The notes below the pieces were generated by a model that was given only the letters and a program-made list of their open reading frames with translations, made no database searches and was not told the origin of the DNA. Positions 25,865 through 35,075 of a stretch of DNA of 64,000 nt are shown here, piece after piece (the stretch's first letter is position 1; each line of letters begins with the position of its first letter). The stretch is taken from positions 17,565 to 81,564 of the forward strand of contig JAFQGK010000006.1 in assembly GCA_017398335.1 (NCBI GenBank), given 5' to 3'. The position numbers and the translations under genes are program-made. The DNA is from Bacteroidales bacterium. Its GTDB lineage: Bacteria > Bacteroidota > Bacteroidia > Bacteroidales > UBA932.

Positions 25865-27418
25865 TTATGGAAATGTGATGTCAAGCTGGAAAGGTCTGTG
25901 GCCTGACGGAGTGTGGGATTCACGGATATGCTTCCACATCTTCTCGACTATTTCCGGATATTCGCCTGCCAGATCATTCTCCTCTCGAGGATCTTCGTTG
26001 ATGCGGTAAAGCTTCATTACATTGTTGCCGTCAGCCACATCTGTTACAAGTCCCTTCCATTCTCCCATTCTAACACAGAGCCAGCCTCTGTCATTCTTGA
26101 ATGGCGGAAATTCCCAATACAGATATTCATGCTCCTTCTGCTTCCTGCCTTTGAGCATCGGAAGGAAGGAGATTCCGTCTGTGTCCGGACATCTTACCTT
26201 TGCAATGTCACAAAGAGTAGGCATGACGTCAGGGAAATATCCGATGTGGTCACTTACTTCCGGTGCAATCCTGTCGCCCCAGCTGACAATGAATGGCACG
26301 CGTATTCCTCCTTCGTGAAGAGACCTCTTGGTCCAGCCTCTGTCGCTTCGGAACGGAGCAGCGCAGTCAAACCAGTTTGTGCTTGTATATGCATTGTGTG
26401 TCGGGCCGTTGTCGCTTGAGAACATGATTATTGTGTTGTCATAGATTCCCAGTTCCTTCAGTTCCTCGACCAGTTTGCCTACCTGCATATCGAAATAGCT
26501 TATCATTGCGGCATATGTTGCCTTTGGATAACGGCATGGAAAGTAGCCTTTTCCGTTGTAGACAGGTATTTCGGTGACATTGTACTGCTCTCCGAATTTC
26601 TTTACATAGTAGTCGACCATCTCATCAGGAGCCTGTAGAGCCGAATGAGGAAAGGTCGTCGTCCACATCAGGAAGAACTCGTTGTCGCGATTCTCCGTTA
26701 TGAACGAACTTACTTCGTCGTACATTCTGTCCGGACTGTAGTCATTTCCCTTGAAACGGGCATAACTGCTTGGCGAATATGGATCTTCTCCTTCGGCAAG
26801 TGCGCTGCTAAGCTCCATGAAAGGATTGTCCAGATATTCTCTTTCAGCATTTCGGTACAGGAACATAGGGTAGTAGTTCTGAGCCATTCTCTGACACATA
26901 TAGCCGTAGAACAGGTCGAATCCCATATCGTTAGGAGTGCTTTGAGAAGACGGTCCGCCAAGTCCCCATTTTCCTATCATGGATGTTTTGTAGCCTGCAT
27001 CCTGCATGACGTTGGCCAGGGTTGTTGTGCCTGATTCAAGGGGTTTCTGACCTTCCAGGTCAGGATTGTCTATCATTGCGCGCAGCTTCCATACGTCACC
27101 TCTTTCCGTCAGTTCATCATTGCTGCGGATCTGAGCGTGTCCGGAGTGAAGTCCGGTCATCAGACAGCAGCGGGAAGGTGCAGACACCGGAGCACCCGCG
27201 TACATGTCTGTGAAAAGTATTCCATTTGATGCAAGTGCATCGATGTTAGGAGTCTCGATCTTGCTTTGTCCATAACATCCGAAGTCTCCATAGCCGGCGT
27301 CGTCCATCAGAATGAAGATTACATTAGGTCTATTTTCATTCTTCTGCCTTGCAGACGCCTCTTGAGGAATGATGGCTGCAGCACCTGCAGCCATCATCAA
27401 TCCATATCTCATCCTCAT
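25865..27418 (-). CDS. S1-family sulfatase (Ser-type), exported
   Basis: A 517-residue sulfatase with a signal peptide (about 1-23). The N-terminal metal block PNVIFILMDD is at 31-40, and the active-site signature Ser79-Ala-Pro-Ser-Arg83 is followed by CCLMTG. The first residue is Ser, so it needs an anaerobic sulfatase-maturing radical SAM enzyme (anSME) to form formylglycine. SDNGPTHN and a basic GWTKRSLHEGG region complete the site. It hydrolyses sulfate esters, presumably on glycans. It starts 3 nt after the glycerol-1-phosphate dehydrogenase gene. The preferred sulfated sugar cannot be read from the sequence. Confidence 0.9.
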   Translation of the reverse strand: MRMRYGLMMAAGAAAIIPQEASARQKNENRPNVIFILMDDAGYGDFGCYGQSKIETPNIDALASNGILFTDMYAGAPVSAPSRCCLMTGLHSGHAQIRSNDELTERGDVWKLRAMIDNPDLEGQKPLESGTTTLANVMQDAGYKTSMIGKWGLGGPSSQSTPNDMGFDLFYGYMCQRMAQNYYPMFLYRNAEREYLDNPFMELSSALAEGEDPYSPSSYARFKGNDYSPDRMYDEVSSFITENRDNEFFLMWTTTFPHSALQAPDEMVDYYVKKFGEQYNVTEIPVYNGKGYFPCRYPKATYAAMISYFDMQVGKLVEELKELGIYDNTIIMFSSDNGPTHNAYTSTNWFDCAAPFRSDRGWTKRSLHEGGIRVPFIVSWGDRIAPEVSDHIGYFPDVMPTLCDIAKVRCPDTDGISFLPMLKGRKQKEHEYLYWEFPPFKNDRGWLCVRMGEWKGLVTDVADGNNVMKLYRINEDPREENDLAGEYPEIVEKMWKHIRESHTPSGHRPFQLDITFP

Positions 27419-27421
27419 TGA

Positions 27422-28762
27422 TTATGCAATTTCCCAAATACCACCCTTGCCGAAGAGATAGTCTTCCACCTCTTTCATCATGCAGCAGCGGTAAACGACG
27501 TCAATGTTTGCGAAACGGCTTCTCATATACGGAATGTATGAGAATGTCTTGCGGAGTCTTTCCCTGCTGACACCGATATGCTCAGGTTCGTAAGGCGCAC
27601 CTACCAGCTTCAGCTTTTCATGAACATCTGCGAATGGAATGATCTGGTTCTGAATCTTTTCCTTCCACTCCGGCCATGCTTTCTTAAGTGCTTCCAGCTG
27701 GGCTCTGAGGCCTTCCTTATCCACATATTTGTCCTTAGCTTCCTTGAGGCCGCGGGCAAGATGTCCCGGCATTCCGGCGAAAACTTCCTGAATCTCTTTC
27801 TCCTGCTCTTCCCATGACTTCCATGCTTCAACACATTTGTCAACATCGAGATTCTCGATATCCTTCTTCAGAAGGAATTCAATGATGGCTGTAGATACAA
27901 GTGTTCCGATACCGACCTTGAAACCGTGTGATACGTGCTTGCCCTCGAAGCAGAGGTCTTCCATATCCCAGCAGTGAGAGAACTGATGCTCTGTACCTGA
28001 AGCCGGACGGCTTGACTGATATGCCTGCATGGCGAAACCGCTCATCAGAAGTCCTTCGGCGAGAAGTTCTGTCATCTTTACATCTCCCTCATGTACTGCG
28101 GCAGGAGCTGAGAGTGACTCTCTGAGTCCGTCCTGTACGAGATCCCATGAGAACTGGTCGATCTTTTCGCTGCCCATGATGTCAGCCAGCATCCAGTCTG
28201 CGCCTGCAGGAATCTTTGCGATAAGGTCTGCATATCCTGAAGCAGCAAGCTCCTTCGGTGCATCAGCTGCAATAAGCGGATCCATTACGAATCCGTATGG
28301 TGCAGGGCAGTCAACGGTCTGCTTGTTGCCGTCAATGGTGATTGAAGAACCGAATGCAGTGTATCCGTCCATCGAAGCAGCTGTGCCGACGCACATGTAT
28401 TTCTTTCCTGTAATATGAGAAACGTATTTTGTAAGGTCGTTCAATACTCCTGATCCCACTGCAATTGCTATTGCATCAGTATTTTCCAGCACAGCCTTGA
28501 GCTGCTCCACATATGACCATTCTGCGTAAAGATCCGGATCGTCGAAGATAAAGGCTTTGTCTGTAGGGATCCCTGCATCGTCAAGGGCTTTCTGAACAGT
28601 CTTACCTGCAACCCTCCATGTGTTTGTGTCAGCAACGATGATTGCCTTTTTGCCAGGGAAAAGCTGATTGAAGAGCTCTGGTGTGCGTAAGGTCGCACCT
28701 TCTCCGATAATTGCTCCTTTTGTGTCTGTGGTGCGCTGAAGCGCGTTTTCTACCTTATTCAT
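27422..28762 (-). CDS. sn-glycerol-1-phosphate dehydrogenase family protein (AraM/EgsA-like)
   Basis: A 446-residue iron/zinc alcohol-dehydrogenase-fold protein of the glycerol-1-phosphate dehydrogenase branch. It shows AVGSGVLNDLTKY at about 117-129 (nucleotide site), GTAASMDGYTAFGSS, the metal-binding Asp in SGYADLIAK, and the His pair in TEHQFSHCWDM and HVSHGFKVG. Family members reduce dihydroxyacetone phosphate to sn-glycerol-1-phosphate; bacterial AraM-like versions also occur in arabinose or glycan loci with unknown roles. It sits between an exported phosphoesterase (19 nt) and a sulfatase (3 nt), a context that suggests a sugar-phosphate or glycan role over archaeal-type lipid synthesis. 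Confidence 0.85.
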   Translation of the reverse strand: MNKVENALQRTTDTKGAIIGEGATLRTPELFNQLFPGKKAIIVADTNTWRVAGKTVQKALDDAGIPTDKAFIFDDPDLYAEWSYVEQLKAVLENTDAIAIAVGSGVLNDLTKYVSHITGKKYMCVGTAASMDGYTAFGSSITIDGNKQTVDCPAPYGFVMDPLIAADAPKELAASGYADLIAKIPAGADWMLADIMGSEKIDQFSWDLVQDGLRESLSAPAAVHEGDVKMTELLAEGLLMSGFAMQAYQSSRPASGTEHQFSHCWDMEDLCFEGKHVSHGFKVGIGTLVSTAIIEFLLKKDIENLDVDKCVEAWKSWEEQEKEIQEVFAGMPGHLARGLKEAKDKYVDKEGLRAQLEALKKAWPEWKEKIQNQIIPFADVHEKLKLVGAPYEPEHIGVSRERLRKTFSYIPYMRSRFANIDVVYRCCMMKEVEDYLFGKGGIWEIA

Positions 28763-28781
28763 ATATTATATGGTTTAAATT

Positions 28782-29969
28782 TTACTTCTTATATGAGCCC
28801 GGCTTGAAGTTCAATGTCTTTACAACCTTCTCCTCGTCGATGAATTCAAGCTTGATGTCATCAGCAGTGACGGTTGCATCCATTCTCTTGAGATTCGGAT
28901 TGCAGACAACAGGGAAGTTGGCAGATGTCGTACCCGGCTTGTCGTACCTGAACTGGTGGATATGTCCGCAGAGCATAAGGTCGATGCCGGCTTCGTTCAG
29001 TACAGGAACAAGGTATTTGCTGATTGTAGCCTGACCATGCCATCCGTTATCCTTCGGGTCCATATGGCAGAATACGATCCTGGTCTTTGCATTGAGGAAC
29101 TCCTCGCTCTTGACCACCTGCTTCAGCCATTCGGCCTCTTCCTTTACATAATCTTCCGTGATCATTATGCCGAGATTGCGGATGTCGGAATCGTGCTTGT
29201 CTTCGCCACCGTCAAGAACGATAAAGAAATGATCACCGTAATTGTATGAATAATAAGTCTTTCCGGTCGGTGTTTCCATGTATTCAAGCCATTTGAGTGC
29301 GGCATTTCCGCGATACTCGTGGTTTCCTCTTACAAACATGATCGGAGTGCCTGAACCGAAGAGCTTGGATGCGGATTTCAGGTAGTGGGTCATTATTCCT
29401 TCCTCGTCGTCATTTGCCGATGTCATATCACCGTTGAAGCATACGAAATCATATTTTCCCATTGCGTCTGGGAAGAGTGTCCTGAAAACAGAGTCGCTTT
29501 CGTGCATGTCATTGACCATGGCGAACTTCACTTCGTCATATTCAGGGGAGAGGGTTGTCACCTTGGTGATGTTGCGTCTTACTTCATTTCCCCAGCCAGC
29601 GGTAAGGGCTATGTGCTTTCTGTTTTCTGCAGCGATCACACCGTTCATAAGGATTCTGTAACGATATGTGGTGCCGGGCTCCAGACCGGTTACCGTCACT
29701 TTATGCAGCTTGGTGATAGGACGCCTGCCTAATCCTCTGGTATCATAGTATTTAGGTCTATCGGAATTGTAGAAATGCGTATCATCGTCCGGTGCAATCT
29801 CTACCCATGAAATTGCATCCATATTCGTTGTCCATACAACGGTGAAACTTGTCTCTGTCACATTCTGAAGGTACGGACCTCCAGTAAGTTTCACACTCGG
29901 AGTTTCCTGTCCGTACGACAGGACTGCAGCAACTGTAGCAATCAAAATGGAAAGGATGATTTTTTTCAT
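28782..29969 (-). CDS. exported metallophosphoesterase with fibronectin-like N-domain
   Basis: A 395-residue secreted protein with a signal peptide at residues 1-20 (MKKIILSILIATVAAVLSYG). An N-terminal fibronectin-III-like purple-acid-phosphatase domain (GGPYLQNV, LEPGTTYRYRI) is followed by the calcineurin-like phosphoesterase with NDMHESD, FNGDM, RGNHEYRG, VFCHMDP and GHIHQF metal-binding blocks. It probably hydrolyses phosphomonoesters or diesters in the periplasm. The ATG at 29967-29969 fits the signal peptide; the frame is open 13 codons further upstream without start support. First gene of a minus-strand unit with the dehydrogenase and sulfatase. Confidence 0.88.
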   Translation of the reverse strand: MKKIILSILIATVAAVLSYGQETPSVKLTGGPYLQNVTETSFTVVWTTNMDAISWVEIAPDDDTHFYNSDRPKYYDTRGLGRRPITKLHKVTVTGLEPGTTYRYRILMNGVIAAENRKHIALTAGWGNEVRRNITKVTTLSPEYDEVKFAMVNDMHESDSVFRTLFPDAMGKYDFVCFNGDMTSANDDEEGIMTHYLKSASKLFGSGTPIMFVRGNHEYRGNAALKWLEYMETPTGKTYYSYNYGDHFFIVLDGGEDKHDSDIRNLGIMITEDYVKEEAEWLKQVVKSEEFLNAKTRIVFCHMDPKDNGWHGQATISKYLVPVLNEAGIDLMLCGHIHQFRYDKPGTTSANFPVVCNPNLKRMDATVTADDIKLEFIDEEKVVKTLNFKPGSYKK

Positions 29970-30039: not shown

Positions 30040-30047
30040 TACATTTG
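30040..30047 (+). promoter_or_regulatory. predicted -7 element for the cytochrome-SUMF1 operon
   Basis: TACATTTG matches TAnnTTTG and lies 21 nt before the ATG at 30069. No clear TTTG -33 partner was seen. On the other strand, 29998-30005 reads TATATTTG, a plausible -7 for the divergent phosphoesterase gene, so the 99-nt gap probably holds two divergent promoters. Confidence 0.42.
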
Positions 30048-30068
30048 CTTGGATATAATAACTGTTTT

Positions 30069-31592
30069 ATGAAAACATCCTCAAAGACTCATTTTCTTGC
30101 ATTATTGGCCGGTATCGTGGCAGGTGTGTCACTGATGATAGTTTTCAATACTGCATGGACAAGGAGTTCCTCAAATGAATCCTGTATGTCCTGCCATGCT
30201 CATCCGGAGTCAGATGCCAGTTGGAAACAGTCATATCATTATAATAACGGCAGCGGTACGATGACTGAATGTGCAGCCTGCCATCTTCCTCCGAAAGGTA
30301 CTGTGAAATATGCTGCGGCCAAGGCGAAGATCGGAGCCAAGGATATATGGGCATATGTCACAAAAGATCTCGAAAGTATTGACTGGGATTCGAAAGGTGA
30401 ACTTGAGCACGCTCAGACAATCGTCTATAACGAATCCTGCGTGGCATGTCACGTCAACCTGTTTCCGGAAGGAATCACCGATGACGGAATCACGGCCCAC
30501 CTGTATTACGAGGACAATGTAGAGAAACTTGATCTGCAATGTATCAGCTGCCATCTGGATGCCGGACATTATAATCCGAACTATAAGCATGGTACTTTGA
30601 AAGATGCTCCCAAACTCTCAGGTGTCATCTACGAAAAGGCGGCAGAAGTCACTGAATTCAGGAATTTTACTGAAACCGTTCCCGGTTCTACTGCTGCAAT
30701 CAGCATGATTGCGGTTCCCGGAGGAGAATTCTACATCGGCAGCCCAGAAGACGAGCCTTTCCGTAAGGCTGACGAGGGCCCGAGAAAGATGGTGAAAGTC
30801 TCTCCGTTCTTCATGGGTGAAGTGGAAGTTACATGGAACCAGTTCTGGGCATTCTATTCCGAGACAATGTCGGAAGGAAGGACTCCGCCAAGCGTCATAT
30901 ATGCCAACAATACAAGAGAAGATATAGATGCTGTCAGCGGCCCGACTCCTCCGTTCGGTATTCCTGATCAGGGATGGGGAATGGGAGACCGCCCTGCCAT
31001 CACAATGACCCATTATGCTGCTGAAACATTCTGTCAGTGGCTTTCGCTGAAGACAGGACGTCACTATCGCCTGCCTACTGAGGCAGAGTGGGAGTATGCG
31101 GCAAGAGGTGGCACAGATACGCCTTACTTCTTTGAAGGAAACCCTAAGAAGTTCTCTGAGAAAGGCTTTCTTAAAGGAATATTCAAACCGGATACAACCG
31201 GTATAGACGGCTATGTAGTCTATGCTCTCAACAGTTCAAACCGCTCTCAGGAGCCGTCAGAGGTCAAAGCTAATCCTTTCGGTCTGAAGAATATGCTTGG
31301 AAATGTTCTTGAGTACTGTTCCGACTATTACGCAGAAGATGCTTATGCCAACCTGGATGAAGGTGAACTTGACCCGAAAGGGCCGTCAGAAGGTGAGGAA
31401 TATGTGGTGCGTGGCGGCTTGTACAACAGTGATGCATCTGATTTACGATGTGCGGCCAGATCATGCACCAACCATGAAGACTGGCTCAAGACCGATCCGC
31501 AGAATCCTAAGAGCATCTGGTGGTATTCGGATATGAAGGGAATTGGATTCAGGGTTGTTTGCGATGTTCCGGAAAATATTGATATCAAATAA
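30069..31592 (+). CDS. tetraheme cytochrome c fused to SUMF1-like domain
   Basis: A 507-residue membrane-anchored protein. A single N-terminal helix (about 8-28) is followed by four CxxCH heme sites at Cys39-His43, Cys68-His72, Cys124-His128 and Cys158-His162, in a NapC/NrfH-like arrangement. Residues about 205-500 are a formylglycine-generating-enzyme/SUMF1 fold (AVPGGEFYIGSP, RLPTEAEWEYAARGG, GNVLEYCSDYY, CAARS). The region of the catalytic cysteine pair reads GGLYNSDASDLRC without those cysteines, so a formylglycine-generating role is unlikely. The heme part suggests electron transfer from the quinol pool or to a periplasmic partner. Gene order with two Tat-exported proteins suggests a periplasmic redox module. 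Start ATG 30069-30071. Confidence 0.85.
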   Translation: MKTSSKTHFLALLAGIVAGVSLMIVFNTAWTRSSSNESCMSCHAHPESDASWKQSYHYNNGSGTMTECAACHLPPKGTVKYAAAKAKIGAKDIWAYVTKDLESIDWDSKGELEHAQTIVYNESCVACHVNLFPEGITDDGITAHLYYEDNVEKLDLQCISCHLDAGHYNPNYKHGTLKDAPKLSGVIYEKAAEVTEFRNFTETVPGSTAAISMIAVPGGEFYIGSPEDEPFRKADEGPRKMVKVSPFFMGEVEVTWNQFWAFYSETMSEGRTPPSVIYANNTREDIDAVSGPTPPFGIPDQGWGMGDRPAITMTHYAAETFCQWLSLKTGRHYRLPTEAEWEYAARGGTDTPYFFEGNPKKFSEKGFLKGIFKPDTTGIDGYVVYALNSSNRSQEPSEVKANPFGLKNMLGNVLEYCSDYYAEDAYANLDEGELDPKGPSEGEEYVVRGGLYNSDASDLRCAARSCTNHEDWLKTDPQNPKSIWWYSDMKGIGFRVVCDVPENIDIK

Positions 31593-31607
31593 CTTAACAC
31601 TATAAAA

Positions 31608-32951
31608 ATGGCAAATAAGGAAATTAACAGAAGAGACTTCCTGCAGATGTCCGGCATGCTTGGACTTGGAATTGCAGGAGCTTCCACACTGCTTTCTTCA
31701 TGCAGTCCTAAACAGAAACCTCTCAGAGAGGCAGGTACTTATTATATACCTGAACTTCCAGACAAAGCTATCGATGGAAAAGAGATCAAGGTCGGAGTGA
31801 TCGGTTGCGGTGGCAGAGGATCAGGCGCCGTCAAGAATGTCTTCGCTGCGGCTGACAATGTGAAGATAGTTGCTTTGGGAGACACATTTGCGGATAGACT
31901 TGAGAAACTTCGCGCAAATATCAAGGAAAATTATGGTCAGGAAATTCCTGATGAGAACTGTTTTGTAGGATTTGATTCGTATAAGAATGTCATTGATGCA
32001 GGTGTTGATTATGTAATCTGCACCGCGCCCCCTGTATTCCGTCCGGATCATTTCAAATATGCAACAGAAAAAGGCGTTCACTCATTCCTTGAGAAACCGA
32101 TTGCAGTCGATCCGAAGGGCTACAGGACAGTGATGGCTACTGCCAGACAGGCAAAGGCAAAGAATCTTGTGGTTGTCTGCGGAACACAGAGACATCATCA
32201 GCGTCCGTATGTTCAGGCATTTGAAAAGATTTCTCAGGGTATGATCGGAGAGATCACAGGAGGAAACGTATATTGGAATCAGGGAATGCTCTGGTACAAG
32301 AACCGCGAGAAGGGATGGAGTGATATGGAGTGGATGATCCGCGACTGGGTGAACTGGAAATGGCTTTCAGGTGACCACATCGTTGAGCAGCATGTCCACA
32401 ATATCGATGTATTCCTTTGGATGTCAGGCCTTAAGGTTGCCAAGGCTACCGGTTTCGGAGCTCGTCACAGAAGAATTACAGGAGACCAGTACGATATGTT
32501 CAGCATTGATTTCGAATGCGAGAACGGCGTACATTTCCACAGCATGTGCCGCCAGATCGATGGCTGCAGCAATATGGTAGCAGAGGAAGTGTTCGGAACA
32601 AAGGGATCATGGAACAGCAGGGACCATGAAATCAAGGATCTCCAAGGTAACGTAATCTGGAAATATGACAAGGAAGCTGAGGAGGCGCTCTTCGAACAGC
32701 ACAATCCATATGTTCTAGAGCACGTTGATGCAATCAACCATATCCGTAAAGGAGAGGGACTTGACGAAGCTACCGATTGCGCAGTGTCATGCCTTGCCGG
32801 AATCATGGGCCGTGAGTCAGCATACACCGGAAATACAGTGACTTGGGATGAAATGAGCCAGTCTGATCTGGATTATATGCCGGCAGAACTCAAGATTGGC
32901 CCTATGGATATGTCAGACTATGTCCTCAAGACACCTGGAACAGCTAAATAA
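31608..32951 (+). CDS. Tat-exported Gfo/Idh/MocA-family oxidoreductase
   Basis: A 447-residue oxidoreductase with a twin-arginine signal (NRRDFLQMSG) and a possible lipobox (LLSSC, Cys32). The NAD(P) fold follows (KVGVIGCGGRGSG, 61-73), then SFLEKPIAVD with the conserved Lys and the C-terminal beta-sheet domain (GTQRHHQRP, HVHNIDVFLWM). Tat export means the cofactor is bound tightly before secretion, as in glucose-fructose oxidoreductase. It probably oxidises a sugar hydroxyl in the periplasm. It sits 15 nt after the cytochrome gene and 2 nt before the TIM-barrel gene. In B. thetaiotaomicron similar proteins take part in 3-keto-glycoside pathways, an analogy rather than proof. Confidence 0.88.
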   Translation: MANKEINRRDFLQMSGMLGLGIAGASTLLSSCSPKQKPLREAGTYYIPELPDKAIDGKEIKVGVIGCGGRGSGAVKNVFAAADNVKIVALGDTFADRLEKLRANIKENYGQEIPDENCFVGFDSYKNVIDAGVDYVICTAPPVFRPDHFKYATEKGVHSFLEKPIAVDPKGYRTVMATARQAKAKNLVVVCGTQRHHQRPYVQAFEKISQGMIGEITGGNVYWNQGMLWYKNREKGWSDMEWMIRDWVNWKWLSGDHIVEQHVHNIDVFLWMSGLKVAKATGFGARHRRITGDQYDMFSIDFECENGVHFHSMCRQIDGCSNMVAEEVFGTKGSWNSRDHEIKDLQGNVIWKYDKEAEEALFEQHNPYVLEHVDAINHIRKGEGLDEATDCAVSCLAGIMGRESAYTGNTVTWDEMSQSDLDYMPAELKIGPMDMSDYVLKTPGTAK

Positions 32952-32953
32952 TC

Positions 32954-33859
32954 ATGGACAGAAGAGATTTCTTTAAGACAGCGGCAATGGGTACGGCAGG
33001 CGCAGCAATGATGTCGTCCCCATTGGCCATGTTCACTTCATGTGCTCCAAAAGAAAAGCCATGTGAACTCAGGATATCGTTTCAGGAGGGAACCGCTCCA
33101 TGTAAGACCCTTGAAGAGAAACTTGACTATATGGAGGAACTCGGTATTGTCGGTCTTGAGCCCAAAGGTAAGAATCTGGCAGAGCGCGTGAATGAATTCC
33201 AGCAGGCACTCCGGGGCAGAAATATCAGGATTTCAGCCATTTGTGCCGGTTTTTCAGGATTCATTCTTGCTGAGGATCCTTCTGTGAAGGCAGATTTTGA
33301 CAGCAGCATGCGTGACATCATCGCTGCTGCCGGTGAACTCGGTTCTACCGGTGTCATCATGGTACCTGCATTCAATCATCAGTCTCCGTGCATGCCACAT
33401 ACTCTTGAGACCAGAAAATATCTCTGCGAGCAGATGCATGAACTCGGTGAGTATGCTCTAAAGCATAATACGACAGTCATTCTGGAACCGCTCAACCGCA
33501 AGGAAGCCCATTATCTCCGACAGGTTGCCGATGCAGCTGCTATCTGCCGCGATTCTGAAAGTGCAGGCGTTAAATGTATGGGTGATTTCTGGCATATGAA
33601 GGAAGAGACATCAGACTATGCCGCCCTTCTTTCAGCAGGAACAGAGTATCTTCAGCATGTACATATCGCAAGCAGGGGAACACGCAAGATGCCAGGCGAA
33701 GACGGCGAACTAGACAACTATGTTGACGGATTCCGTGCTTTGAAGCAGCTTGGATATGACAAGTATGTCAGCTTTGAGTGCGGTTGCAACGGAGATAAGG
33801 AAATTCTCGTTCCGGCAGCGGTGCAGTTGATGCGCACACAGTGGGAACAGGCTCTTTGA
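32954..33859 (+). CDS. Tat-exported TIM-barrel protein (sugar isomerase/epimerase-like)
   Basis: A 301-residue protein with a Tat/lipoprotein signal (MDRRDFFKTA and FTSC). The xylose-isomerase-like/AP-endonuclease-2 barrel follows, with metal-site candidates in VILEPLNRKEAHY (Glu), GDFWHMKEE (Asp/His), LQHVHIASRG (His) and the late FECG (Glu). Exported members of this fold act as sugar isomerases, epimerases or keto-glycoside eliminases. It starts 2 nt after the Gfo/Idh/MocA gene, so the two probably process the same sugar. The exact reaction is unknown. Confidence 0.85.
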   Translation: MDRRDFFKTAAMGTAGAAMMSSPLAMFTSCAPKEKPCELRISFQEGTAPCKTLEEKLDYMEELGIVGLEPKGKNLAERVNEFQQALRGRNIRISAICAGFSGFILAEDPSVKADFDSSMRDIIAAAGELGSTGVIMVPAFNHQSPCMPHTLETRKYLCEQMHELGEYALKHNTTVILEPLNRKEAHYLRQVADAAAICRDSESAGVKCMGDFWHMKEETSDYAALLSAGTEYLQHVHIASRGTRKMPGEDGELDNYVDGFRALKQLGYDKYVSFECGCNGDKEILVPAAVQLMRTQWEQAL

Positions 33860-33931: not shown

Positions 33932-33962
33932 TGTCAACTATAACCAAACTCTTTTTTTAGAT

Positions 33963-35075
33963 ATGAAAAGAATATTAGCAATCTTCTCATTTGCTCTTGC
34001 AGCAGGCTTGTCATTGTCAGCTCAGGAAGAGCAGTTTTCAGCCAAGCTTGAAAAGGATGATATAATGAAAGTCTGCACAGCTGTATCTTCTTGGCAGATA
34101 GATAATTTCGACAAAGTAAAGCACAGACGTAACGGCTGGCATAACGGTGCGCTATATATCGGTATGTTCCATTGGGCGGAGAAGGCTGGTGATGCCAAGA
34201 CTGCCGACTTTCTGATGAAGATAGGAAAGGAGACCAAATGGGCTCCTGCCAACAGGTCCTATCATGCAGATGATATCTGCGTAGGTCAGATGTATATCGA
34301 AATGTACAAGAAGCATAAGGATGAAAAGATGATCCAGCCTTTGAAGGAACGTGCGTTCTATGTGGCAAGTCATCCGTCCGATGCACCTCTTTCTAAAAAG
34401 GATAAGGTAGGCAAGGATACAAGATGGTCCTGGTGTGATGCATTGTTCATGGCTCCTCCTGTATATGCAGCACTTTATACTATGACAAAAGAGGATGTCT
34501 ACAGAGACTATATGATCAGCGAATTCAAGGAATGTACCGATTCTCTATATGACGAATCTGAAGGACTTTACTACCGTGACTGCATGAGGATCGGCGTCAA
34601 GGAATCGAACGGAGCAAAGCAGTTCTGGGGACGTGGAAACGGCTGGGTATTCGGAGGTATTCCATTGATTCTGAATAATCTGCCTGCTGATGACCCGTCA
34701 CGTGAATATTTCATCAATATATATAAGGAAATGGCTGAGGCAGCACTCAGAACTCAGGATAAGGATGGCCATTGGCATGCAAGCCTTCTTGATCCAGGTG
34801 CATATCCATATCCAGAGAACAGTACTTCTGCATTCTTCTGCTACGGACTTGCATGGGGCGTGAATAACGGAATTCTGCAGGGTGCGAAATATAAGAAGGC
34901 TATGAAGAAAGCCTGGGAAGGTCTGATCGAAGCTGTCCACCCTGATGGAAAACTTGGTTTTGTACAGCCCGTAGGAGCTTCTCCGAAGCCTGCCAACTAT
35001 GACTCTACTGAGGTTTATGGAGTGGGAGCATTGTTGCTTGCCGGAACAGAAATTCTGAAGATCCTTGAAAAATAG
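33963..35075 (+). CDS. GH105/GH88-like unsaturated glycuronyl hydrolase
   Basis: A 370-residue secreted hydrolase with signal peptide MKRILAIFSFALAAGLSLSAQ and an (alpha/alpha)6-barrel. Characteristic GH105 (YteR-like) blocks are RNGWHNGALYIG, YHADDICVGQMY, WSWCDALFMAPP, QFWGRGNGWVFGG and STSAFFCYGLAWG. GH105 enzymes remove 4,5-unsaturated galacturonyl or glucuronyl residues left by polysaccharide lyases. It may extend the glycosaminoglycan or pectin repertoire but is 6 kb from the lyase operons and has its own promoter, so its partner pathway is open. The ATG at 33963 fits the signal; an upstream in-frame extension lacks one. Confidence 0.87.
   Translation: MKRILAIFSFALAAGLSLSAQEEQFSAKLEKDDIMKVCTAVSSWQIDNFDKVKHRRNGWHNGALYIGMFHWAEKAGDAKTADFLMKIGKETKWAPANRSYHADDICVGQMYIEMYKKHKDEKMIQPLKERAFYVASHPSDAPLSKKDKVGKDTRWSWCDALFMAPPVYAALYTMTKEDVYRDYMISEFKECTDSLYDESEGLYYRDCMRIGVKESNGAKQFWGRGNGWVFGGIPLILNNLPADDPSREYFINIYKEMAEAALRTQDKDGHWHASLLDPGAYPYPENSTSAFFCYGLAWGVNNGILQGAKYKKAMKKAWEGLIEAVHPDGKLGFVQPVGASPKPANYDSTEVYGVGALLLAGTEILKILEK

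Follow-up and report, generated by a model that had tools for sequence, protein, structure and literature searches.

Here we describe a gene set, located within a 64,000-nucleotide stretch of a Bacteroidales genome (the window), in which a tetraheme cytochrome fused to a SUMF1-fold domain directly precedes an exported oxidoreductase and a TIM-barrel protein (Table 1). The fusion proposed by the initial annotation is confirmed by matches to PF03264 and PF03781 on one open reading frame with four CxxCH motifs; its 507 residues are counted from the ATG at 30069, while the automatic call opens at an upstream TTG (30045). Gene assignments and spacing also proved correct by ORF calls and Pfam, with the Gfo/Idh/MocA reading frame starting 15 nt past the fusion stop and that of the TIM barrel 2 nt further on. 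The glycosyl hydrolase family 88 gene that follows possibly belongs to the same operon. The neighbouring genes, scanned with Pfam, are mostly related to carbohydrates, phosphate esters or sulfate esters, and no terminal reductase was recognised adjoining the fusion.

Table 1. Features of the locus, in window positions
Feature	Position	Strand	Basis
Tetraheme NapC/NrfH-type cytochrome–SUMF1-fold fusion, 507 aa	30069..31592	+	ORF call, Pfam, 58-row alignment
Four c-type heme motifs CxxCH, residues 39-43, 68-72, 124-128, 158-162	30183..30554	+	Alignments of 16 and 58 rows
Lys85 and Asp92, equivalent to NrfH Lys82 and Asp89 (menaquinol site)	30321..30344	+	Profile alignment to 2J7A_C, E 1e-9
SUMF1-fold domain lacking both catalytic Cys of formylglycine-generating enzymes (FGEs)	30702..31472	+	Pfam, solved relatives, alignment
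Loop motif DAVSGPT, residues 287-293, like but not identical to the ApbE flavinylation motif	30927..30947	+	Alignments
Gfo/Idh/MocA oxidoreductase, Tat-signalled, lipobox-bearing, 447 aa; proposed catalytic dehydrogenase	31608..32951	+	ORF, Pfam, alignments
Xylose-isomerase-like TIM barrel, Tat-type, 301 aa; optional member	32954..33859	+	Pfam PF01261, structure relatives 3KWS, 6WN6
Glycosyl hydrolase family 88 protein, 94 nt downstream of TIM barrel	33954..35075	+	ORF call, Pfam
Sulfatase, ~2.7 kb upstream of fusion	25865-27418	Opposite to fusion	ORF call, Pfam

The heme domain (PF03264 Cytochrom_NNT, residues 4-171, E 1.5e-24, above cut-off) is the only PF03264 match in the genome. All four CxxCH motifs are invariant in 16/16 aligned fusions and in 58/58 rows of a larger alignment (57 distinct), as are further histidines at positions 45, 57, 144 and 167. 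Lys85 and Asp92 are likewise kept in every one of these 58 rows (57 distinct). The place of NrfH Met49, presumably the heme-1 ligand as the Met following CxxCH, was located by the profile alignment to 2J7A chain C and is taken by His45 in 58/58 rows. Lys82 and Asp89 of NrfH are named in a passage of PMC4683180, where the protein is described as interacting with the quinone pool. The tetraheme protein appears capable of contacting the pool of respiratory quinones. A hydrophobic N-terminal anchor was recognised from the sequence alone, and the remainder of the fusion is expected in the periplasm. The genome (86% complete) encodes TatC as well as a protein for cytochrome c assembly, and the PF02335 profile for NrfA matches nothing in it.

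The C-terminal part of the fusion matches PF03781 (FGE-sulfatase, residues 212-468, E 7e-38), and its nearest solved relatives are formylglycine-generating enzymes (6S07, 2AFT; E 8e-25 to 4e-19). The window protein has neither cysteine of the catalytic pair, which we take to be Cys336/Cys341 in human numbering, and none stands at those sites in 16/16 aligned fusions; formylglycine generation by this domain was rejected because the pair is absent. In the window protein the loop reads SGPT, and in some relatives it is SGAT or TGAT, so that the window protein does not match the [S/T]GA[S/T] motif of ApbE flavinylation. The loop is not fully fixed, its first position being E in 4 and its fourth other than S, T or A in 6 of 163 readable rows.

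The oxidoreductase begins with MANKEINRRDFLQMSGMLGLGIAGASTLLSSC, which holds a Tat-type RR and a lipobox-like cysteine, and it matches PF01408 and PF22725, the Rossmann NAD-binding and C-terminal domains, in agreement with its annotation as a Tat-signalled Gfo/Idh/MocA protein. An EKP motif (E162 K163 P164) is invariant, and a [DE]xxxH pattern kept, in 16/16 aligned Gfo proteins; by regular expression, the Tat RR occurs in 50/51 Gfo partners adjoining fusions. We infer that NAD(P) is bound within this protein and that a sugar is its substrate. The TIM barrel had also been annotated as a Tat-type protein; its PF01261 match is clear (E 2.5e-28) and that to TAT_signal is weak, just below cut-off. 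Since the barrel is closely related to 3KWS and clearly related to the 3-keto-D-glucoside 4-epimerase 6WN6, and ThuA-type genes lie near 10/58 fusion rows, a link to 3-keto-sugar chemistry is plausible.

Conservation was assessed across the order in a sample of 295 genomes. Of these, 39 match the fusion profile, one (G154) by a heme-domain fragment only, and the Gfo subfamily is likewise found in 39, of which 38 are common to both lists (Fisher 1e-45; neither this nor the binomial tests allow for kinship); a single genome (G160) carries the Gfo subfamily without the fusion. The module survives the test of conserved co-occurrence on which it had been staked beforehand. In all 15 named full-length fusions a Gfo subfamily gene lies downstream on the same strand at no more than 151 bp, and in 37 of 42 additional fusion loci taken from the order sample one does so within 216 bp, distances being those between matched domains; one fetched locus (L113) is identical in sequence to a named one (L010). 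Among the 42, the remaining loci have no adjoining Gfo (L127, L131), a Gfo on the opposite strand (L118, L119) or an ortholog 3 kb off (L120). Since Gfo follows the fusion so regularly in the named and the fetched loci, the gene set is not a chance arrangement. The TIM-barrel ortholog occurs in 18/295 genomes, all of which carry the fusion; of the three-gene order that the initial annotation proposed, the fusion–Gfo adjacency stands, and the barrel as an obligatory member was rejected for its presence in only 18/39 fusion-match genomes. Profile searches found the whole set absent from the sampled same-genus genome and two same-family genomes. Gfo subfamily copies number at least 64 in the 39 Gfo genomes versus at least 46 fusion places (three partial), both being lower bounds as at most five candidates were scored per genome; the excess looks like that expected of a single cytochrome serving more than one dehydrogenase. 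A conserved module of a quinone-type cytochrome and an exported Gfo/Idh/MocA oxidoreductase is strongly supported by the gene order and by co-occurrence across genomes; the co-occurrence shows dependence, not electron flow. Overall, the interpretation given in the initial annotation is borne out in part.

Relatives of the SUMF1 domain that lack the tetraheme domain adjoin Gfo genes in several phyla, and lie within 700 bp of one in 40/56 named and 44/50 sampled Bacteroidota loci. Genes for the flavin transferase ApbE, or PSCyt1 domains, recur at these loci, with ApbE within 3 kb in 21/56 named and 19/50 sampled Bacteroidota loci; the pattern was first noticed in the named loci, which makes the 50 sampled Bacteroidota loci a fairer check. 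The A3 and A4 profiles, though, were built from the named loci, and 7 of the 19 ApbEs counted in the Bacteroidota loci fall below 310 bits, a score line for ApbE that was chosen after a gap was seen in the scores. By contrast, ApbE lies within 3 kb of the fusion in 0/57 loci, and the fusion loci yielded no flavin gene; the window genome has one ApbE, away from the fusion cluster. We interpret the SUMF1 domain as the adaptor for Gfo, with the electron carrier, be it a heme or a flavin unit, being exchangeable. That a non-glycine motif accompanies a dedicated ApbE is only an idea, because the placed fusions form one clade in the tree and a sign test on 15 pairs, of which 1-3 differ in the motif (median p 1), cannot decide. 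A canonical [ST]GA[ST] target beside ApbE was sought among called ORFs within 5 kb at 22 loci, and none of the four cases (a 532-aa ORF clustering with sulfatases, two Gfo-bearing ORFs and one other ORF) was convincing. A small gene adjoining some SUMF1 genes (cluster c14, e.g. L034) has no Pfam match, and a YceI-like identity is not claimed for it.

These data suggest that electrons from sugar go directly from the periplasm into respiration, and we consider a membrane-anchored periplasmic sugar-oxidising module the probable function of the set. The Tat-exported Gfo lipoprotein, with NAD(P) travelling inside it, would oxidise a hydroxyl group on its substrate, be this a sugar, a glycoside or a uronate; the SUMF1-fold domain would be its dedicated docking partner, and the NrfH-like tetraheme domain would accept the electrons and pass them to menaquinone, so reoxidising the dehydrogenase. 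Where present, the TIM barrel may epimerise or cleave the keto-sugar. We infer the docking of Gfo on SUMF1, the electron transfer and its direction.

Flow in the reverse sense, from menaquinol through the tetraheme domain to Gfo and the TIM barrel for reduction of a keto-sugar or other acceptor, as NrfH serves NrfA, would suit the conserved menaquinol-site residues and the normal role of NapC/NrfH proteins as quinol oxidisers; we hold it unlikely, since reduction of NAD(P) by menaquinol is uphill on textbook potentials and the fusion's neighbourhood, as described above, speaks against it. Similarly improbable is a self-contained cycle of Gfo with its tightly bound NAD(P), the fusion merely tethering Gfo or serving another redox partner. 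Exported glycoside oxidoreductases can indeed run on tightly bound NAD(P), oxidation and elimination form such a cycle in related glycoside chemistry, and tetraheme-free SUMF1 pairs with Gfo in many taxa, often without ApbE within 3 kb (35/56 named, 31/50 sampled loci). Invariance of the heme motifs and quinone-site residues across all fusion rows, however, argues against it, as do the near-absence of the Gfo subfamily without the fusion (1/39 Gfo genomes in the order) and the recurrent flavin transferase genes or PSCyt1 domains by the tetraheme-free relatives. The PF03781 match, its solved relatives and the sulfatase gene upstream on the other strand could point to a formylglycine-generating enzyme with its own electron supply, acting on sulfatases such as that at 25865-27418, but the missing cysteines, together with Gfo as the partner conserved across genomes, make this highly improbable.

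A point against the preferred sugar-oxidising reading is the step from hydride to heme: such transfer usually proceeds via a flavin, in whose absence hemes are poorly reduced by NAD(P)H. A flavin on SUMF1 is a possibility. A broader, rather doubtful proposal is that SUMF1–Gfo is an ancient cross-phylum core, with covalent FMN on the Thr/Ser of a [DE]xx[ST]x[PA][TS] loop, attached by a dedicated ApbE in tetraheme-free clusters or a housekeeping ApbE for the fusions, which would split hydride into one-electron steps that supply exchangeable cytochromes (tetraheme, PSCyt1). If true, FMN-bearing SUMF1 would be a new flavoprotein class and a general means of connecting exported dehydrogenases that depend on NAD(P) to respiration. 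Exported Gfo/Idh/MocA proteins are cut off from cytoplasmic NAD(P); the gene set makes extracytoplasmic cofactor reoxidation directly testable. The proposed module, if true, would give its host bacteria respiratory energy from periplasmic sugar oxidation. It would likewise assign a function to a SUMF1 subfamily whose present name refers to sulfatase maturation only, and to an ApbE clade for which we know of no assigned substrate.

No published system combining cytochrome–SUMF1 and Gfo in this way came up in literature searches, and passages of PMC11003636 and PMC11501099 hold nothing bearing on it. With formylglycine-generating enzymes (6S07, 2AFT) the window protein has the fold family in common, but it lacks their Cys pair and carries a heme domain in the same chain. 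ApbE-flavinylated extracytosolic electron carriers (PMC8238504, PMC11334425, as seen in part) resemble the SUMF1–Gfo clusters of the relatives, where ApbE recurs and some motifs are SGAT-like; text finds for Gfo and formylglycine gave no occurrence in either paper, nor did FGE-sulfatase in PMC8238504 or sulfatase in PMC11334425. The window cluster differs from these carriers in having no ApbE and an SGPT motif. LacABC-type sugar 3-dehydrogenases use a cytochrome c and their catalytic unit is a GMC flavoprotein, another family than Gfo; to our knowledge, they include no Gfo/Idh/MocA, SUMF1 or tetraheme NrfH-like protein. In Caulobacter, as described in the part of PMC9007349 consulted, such a membrane-bound enzyme converts sugar to a 3-keto product in the periplasm. 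The proposed module would share this membrane-bound periplasmic oxidation and, if true, differ in catalytic family. BT2158 of Bacteroides thetaiotaomicron is presumably a Gfo/Idh/MocA protein. It is presented, in the sections seen of PMC11300592 and PMC9007349, as a periplasmic glycoside 3-dehydrogenase, with BT2157 as a 3-ketotrehalose hydrolase, and a text find did not return the word cytochrome in the main text of PMC11300592. The likeness to the window set, that of a periplasmic glycoside 3-dehydrogenase in Bacteroidales, is one of description rather than of compared BT2158 and window Gfo sequences, and in place of DUF1080 the window encodes a TIM barrel. The fusion also resembles the NrfH/NapC quinol dehydrogenases (2J7A chain C, E 1e-9), with an anchor-like N-terminus, four CxxCH motifs and the Lys82/Asp89 pair in common; in contrast to them, the fusion carries a SUMF1 domain, has Gfo rather than NrfA as its partner and places His at the Met49 position.

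The gene set described by the initial annotation was borne out in the source draft genome (2.2 Mb, 73 contigs, 86% complete): a tetraheme domain and a SUMF1-fold domain share a single reading frame, followed on the same strand, after gaps of 15 and 2 nt, by genes for a Tat-type Gfo/Idh/MocA oxidoreductase (Gfo) and a Tat-type TIM barrel protein. A glycosyl hydrolase family 88 gene lies 94 nt further downstream. Upstream, the phosphoesterase gene is divergent from the fusion gene.

Coordinates of the fusion gene and its neighbours in the window
Feature	Position	Strand	Match
PF03264 NapC/NirT domain and PF03781 SUMF1-fold domain (fusion)	30069-31592	+	E 1.5e-24 and E 7e-38
Gfo	31608-32951	+	
TIM barrel	32954-33859	+	
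Sulfatase, iron-alcohol-dehydrogenase-type protein, purple-acid-phosphatase-like phosphoesterase	25868-29969	-	

In a scan of named genomes, from which the best 80 loci were taken, the nearest named relatives of the fusion were Bacteroidales, and 15 loci (L002-L016, Bacteroidota by title) encoded full-length fusions with 47-73% identity to the window protein, each followed on the same strand by a Gfo gene with at most 151 bp between the matched domains (15/15). Across 295 evenly drawn genomes of the order, the fusion profile (E <= 1e-60) matched in 39 genomes from 26 of 183 genera, the match in G154 being a heme-domain stretch of 181 aa only. Loci were retrieved for 43 of the 46 listed fusion places, all except the fusion of the window itself and fragments in G233 and G154; one retrieved locus (L155) has a SUMF1 domain by itself where its contig ends, and the remaining 42 are all fusions. 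The conserved three-gene order, named as a check in the initial annotation, holds for the fusion-Gfo step, with a same-strand Gfo gene within 216 bp in 37/42 sampled loci; the TIM gene is an optional member and in a strong form stands directly downstream in 18 of 58 fusion rows (truncated at a contig end in one). These rows comprise the 15 named loci, the 42 sampled loci and the window, and hold 57 distinct sequences because L113 and L010 are identical. The Gfo gene is on the opposite strand in L118 and L119; in L120 a different Gfo gene adjoins the fusion, with the ortholog of the fusion-linked Gfo 3 kb on; and the retrieved stretches of L127 and L131 contained no Gfo gene. L118, L119 and L120 (family f88) are rearranged loci in which a ThuA gene and several Gfo genes surround the fusion. 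ThuA-type genes occur within 4 kb in 10/58 rows.

With profile A2 (E <= 1e-120; weakest listed match 8.5e-155), the Gfo subfamily was likewise present in 39/295 genomes, 38 of them common to both sets (Fisher 1e-45, G154 being included among the fusion genomes and kinship ignored); the discordant genomes are G154, a heme-domain match without Gfo, and G160, Gfo without fusion. Listed copies come to at least 64 Gfo in 39 genomes against at least 46 fusion places (three partial), both lower bounds because at most five candidates were scored per genome. Genomes listing more than one Gfo copy were all fusion genomes too, as though several of these enzymes shared the cytochrome as acceptor. Profile A6 (E <= 1e-80) detected the TIM ortholog in 18/295 genomes, all 18 fusion genomes, and its adjacency to the fusion is not constant. 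The module is patchy, since fusion, Gfo and TIM were all absent from the sampled same-genus genome and two same-family genomes.

All four CxxCH motifs, together with His45, His57, His144 and His167, are invariant in 58/58 fusion rows, a set that would suffice for four bis-His hemes. Among solved structures, the best match to the heme domain is chain C of 2J7A, an NrfH (E 1e-9), and the alignment places Lys85, Asp92 and His45 on NrfH Lys82, Asp89 and Met49; in NrfH, Lys82 and Asp89 line the menaquinol pocket and Met49 ligates heme 1. This correspondence supports a putative quinone-facing relay with an altered heme 1. In the available part of one source, NrfH is a protein allowing interaction with the quinone pool, and Lys82 and Asp89 are named as conserved residues (PMC4683180). 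The window genome (86% complete) encodes TatC and a cytochrome c assembly protein, gave no match for NrfA, and contains the fusion as its sole PF03264 match.

Gfo should be an active dehydrogenase, as predicted from its retained EKP motif, [DE]xxxH pattern and Asp after beta-2, the last presumably signalling, as it usually does, NAD preference. Its nearest solved relatives, inositol dehydrogenases and a glucuronide-3-dehydrogenase, are distant. By regular expressions, the Gfo partners of fusions resemble Tat lipoproteins (RR 50/51, lipobox-like 45/51), whereas Gfo partners of SUMF1 proteins without the tetraheme domain (tetraheme-free) carry RR in 69/76 but a lipobox in only 4/76. For the TIM barrel, 3KWS is a close relative (E 2e-120), and the 3-keto-D-glucoside 4-epimerase 6WN6 is also related; Glu178, Asp211, His237 and Glu275, which we take to be metal-ligand-like positions, are invariant in 8/8.

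The other 65 of the best 80 named loci encode tetraheme-free SUMF1 proteins, the closer ones in Bacteroidota, Balneolota, Planctomycetota, Verrucomicrobiota and Acidobacteriota; 56 passed a 200-bit line and nine fell below it. A Gfo gene lies within 700 bp in 40/56 (several others are cut by contig ends) and in 44/50 Bacteroidota tetraheme-free loci drawn from 53 listed places, and SUMF1 with Gfo is therefore the wider pair. In a tree of 134 rows, all 30 placed fusions lie together to the same side of a branch with SH-aLRT 100, which suggests that the tetraheme domain was probably gained a single time. The carrier seems exchangeable: some SUMF1 proteins of Verrucomicrobiota show a second cytochrome-SUMF1 architecture, in which the tetraheme domain is replaced by an N-terminal PSCyt1 domain, identified by Pfam in L033, and by CxxCH motifs and likeness to L033, not Pfam, in L021, L029, L031 and L052. 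Three Maribacter loci (L023, L025, L062) have no Gfo gene within 700 bp of SUMF1; in L023 and L025, genes of clusters with PSCyt1/PSCyt2/PSD1 and DUF1501 proteins come after SUMF1 (by Pfam in L025 only), and L023 and L062 have a gene for ApbE, a flavin transferase, in the vicinity. SUMF1 is next to a gene for a small protein (cluster c14, 181-194 aa) in L024, L025, L034 and L062; the L034 protein has a signal-peptide-like start and no match in a Pfam scan.

The most unexpected result was the recurrence of ApbE beside tetraheme-free SUMF1-Gfo pairs. ApbE lies within 3 kb in 21/56 named and 19/50 sampled tetraheme-free loci (7 of these 19 being weaker matches, <310 bits) versus 0/57 fusion loci, and 40/42 ApbE genes in tetraheme-free loci fall in this zone, which makes up 45% of the flank (binomial 2e-12, kinship ignored). 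Two scanned genes matched PF02424 at E 7e-79 and 3e-67. In a tree with 24 other ApbEs from the same or fusion-bearing genomes, all outside the cluster clade, 18/22 cluster ApbEs, which span five phyla, group in a single clade (99/95); those of L038/L051/L056 and of L032 are separate recruitments, and L052 and L077 are long-branched. The five-phylum clade is tied to SUMF1-Gfo pairs at L022, L045, L053, L065, L077 and other tetraheme-free loci. Among 395 Bacteroidota genomes, tetraheme-free SUMF1 occurs in 48, an ApbE >310 bits in 36 and both in 26, leaving 22 with SUMF1 but no such ApbE and 10 with such an ApbE but no tetraheme-free SUMF1. Because its presence beside SUMF1 switches at least 19 times in the tree of 134 rows, ApbE is a recurrent, not a fixed, companion, and this recurrence suggests a flavin within or close to the chain from Gfo to the next carrier.

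Whether such a flavin could sit on SUMF1 itself turns on one loop, in which Thr or Ser occupies a single position in every readable row (163 of 165; T 105, S 58), preceded by Pro (142) or Ala (21). Fusions read DxxxGxT in 58/58 rows, with P or A before T (DAVSGPT in the window), and several, such as L011, L015, L016, L133, L153 and L154, carry SGAT or TGAT, which fit the published ApbE motif [S/T]GA[S/T] (PMC8238504). This placement is nevertheless unlikely, because tetraheme-free members with a cluster ApbE mostly read RP[TS], unlike that motif, and no ApbE lies beside the forms with SGAT. The window genome has one ApbE, away from the fusion locus. By text search, the terms Gfo and formylglycine occur nowhere in two flavinylation surveys (PMC8238504, PMC11334425).

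By their redox potentials, electrons run downhill from NADH to menaquinone and uphill the other way, which favours the oxidation direction. On the preferred reading, sugar would reduce NAD(P) bound in Gfo, which would pass electrons to SUMF1 as adaptor, where a flavin may take part, and thence through the four hemes to menaquinone. The nearest solved relatives of the SUMF1 domain are formylglycine-generating enzymes, yet neither the window protein nor any of 16 aligned fusions has a Cys at the catalytic Cys positions. No system of the same make-up was found in the open-licence literature, as far as its texts were available, and one in subscription papers may escape such a search. By membership tests the module falls outside both NrfHA and the formylglycine-generating enzymes. 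Known sugar-oxidizing systems include, in the available parts of their sources, BT2158, a periplasmic glycoside 3-dehydrogenase (PMC11300592), and LacABC, a membrane-bound route (PMC9007349). On this reading, the module would work like a cytochrome-linked sugar dehydrogenase.
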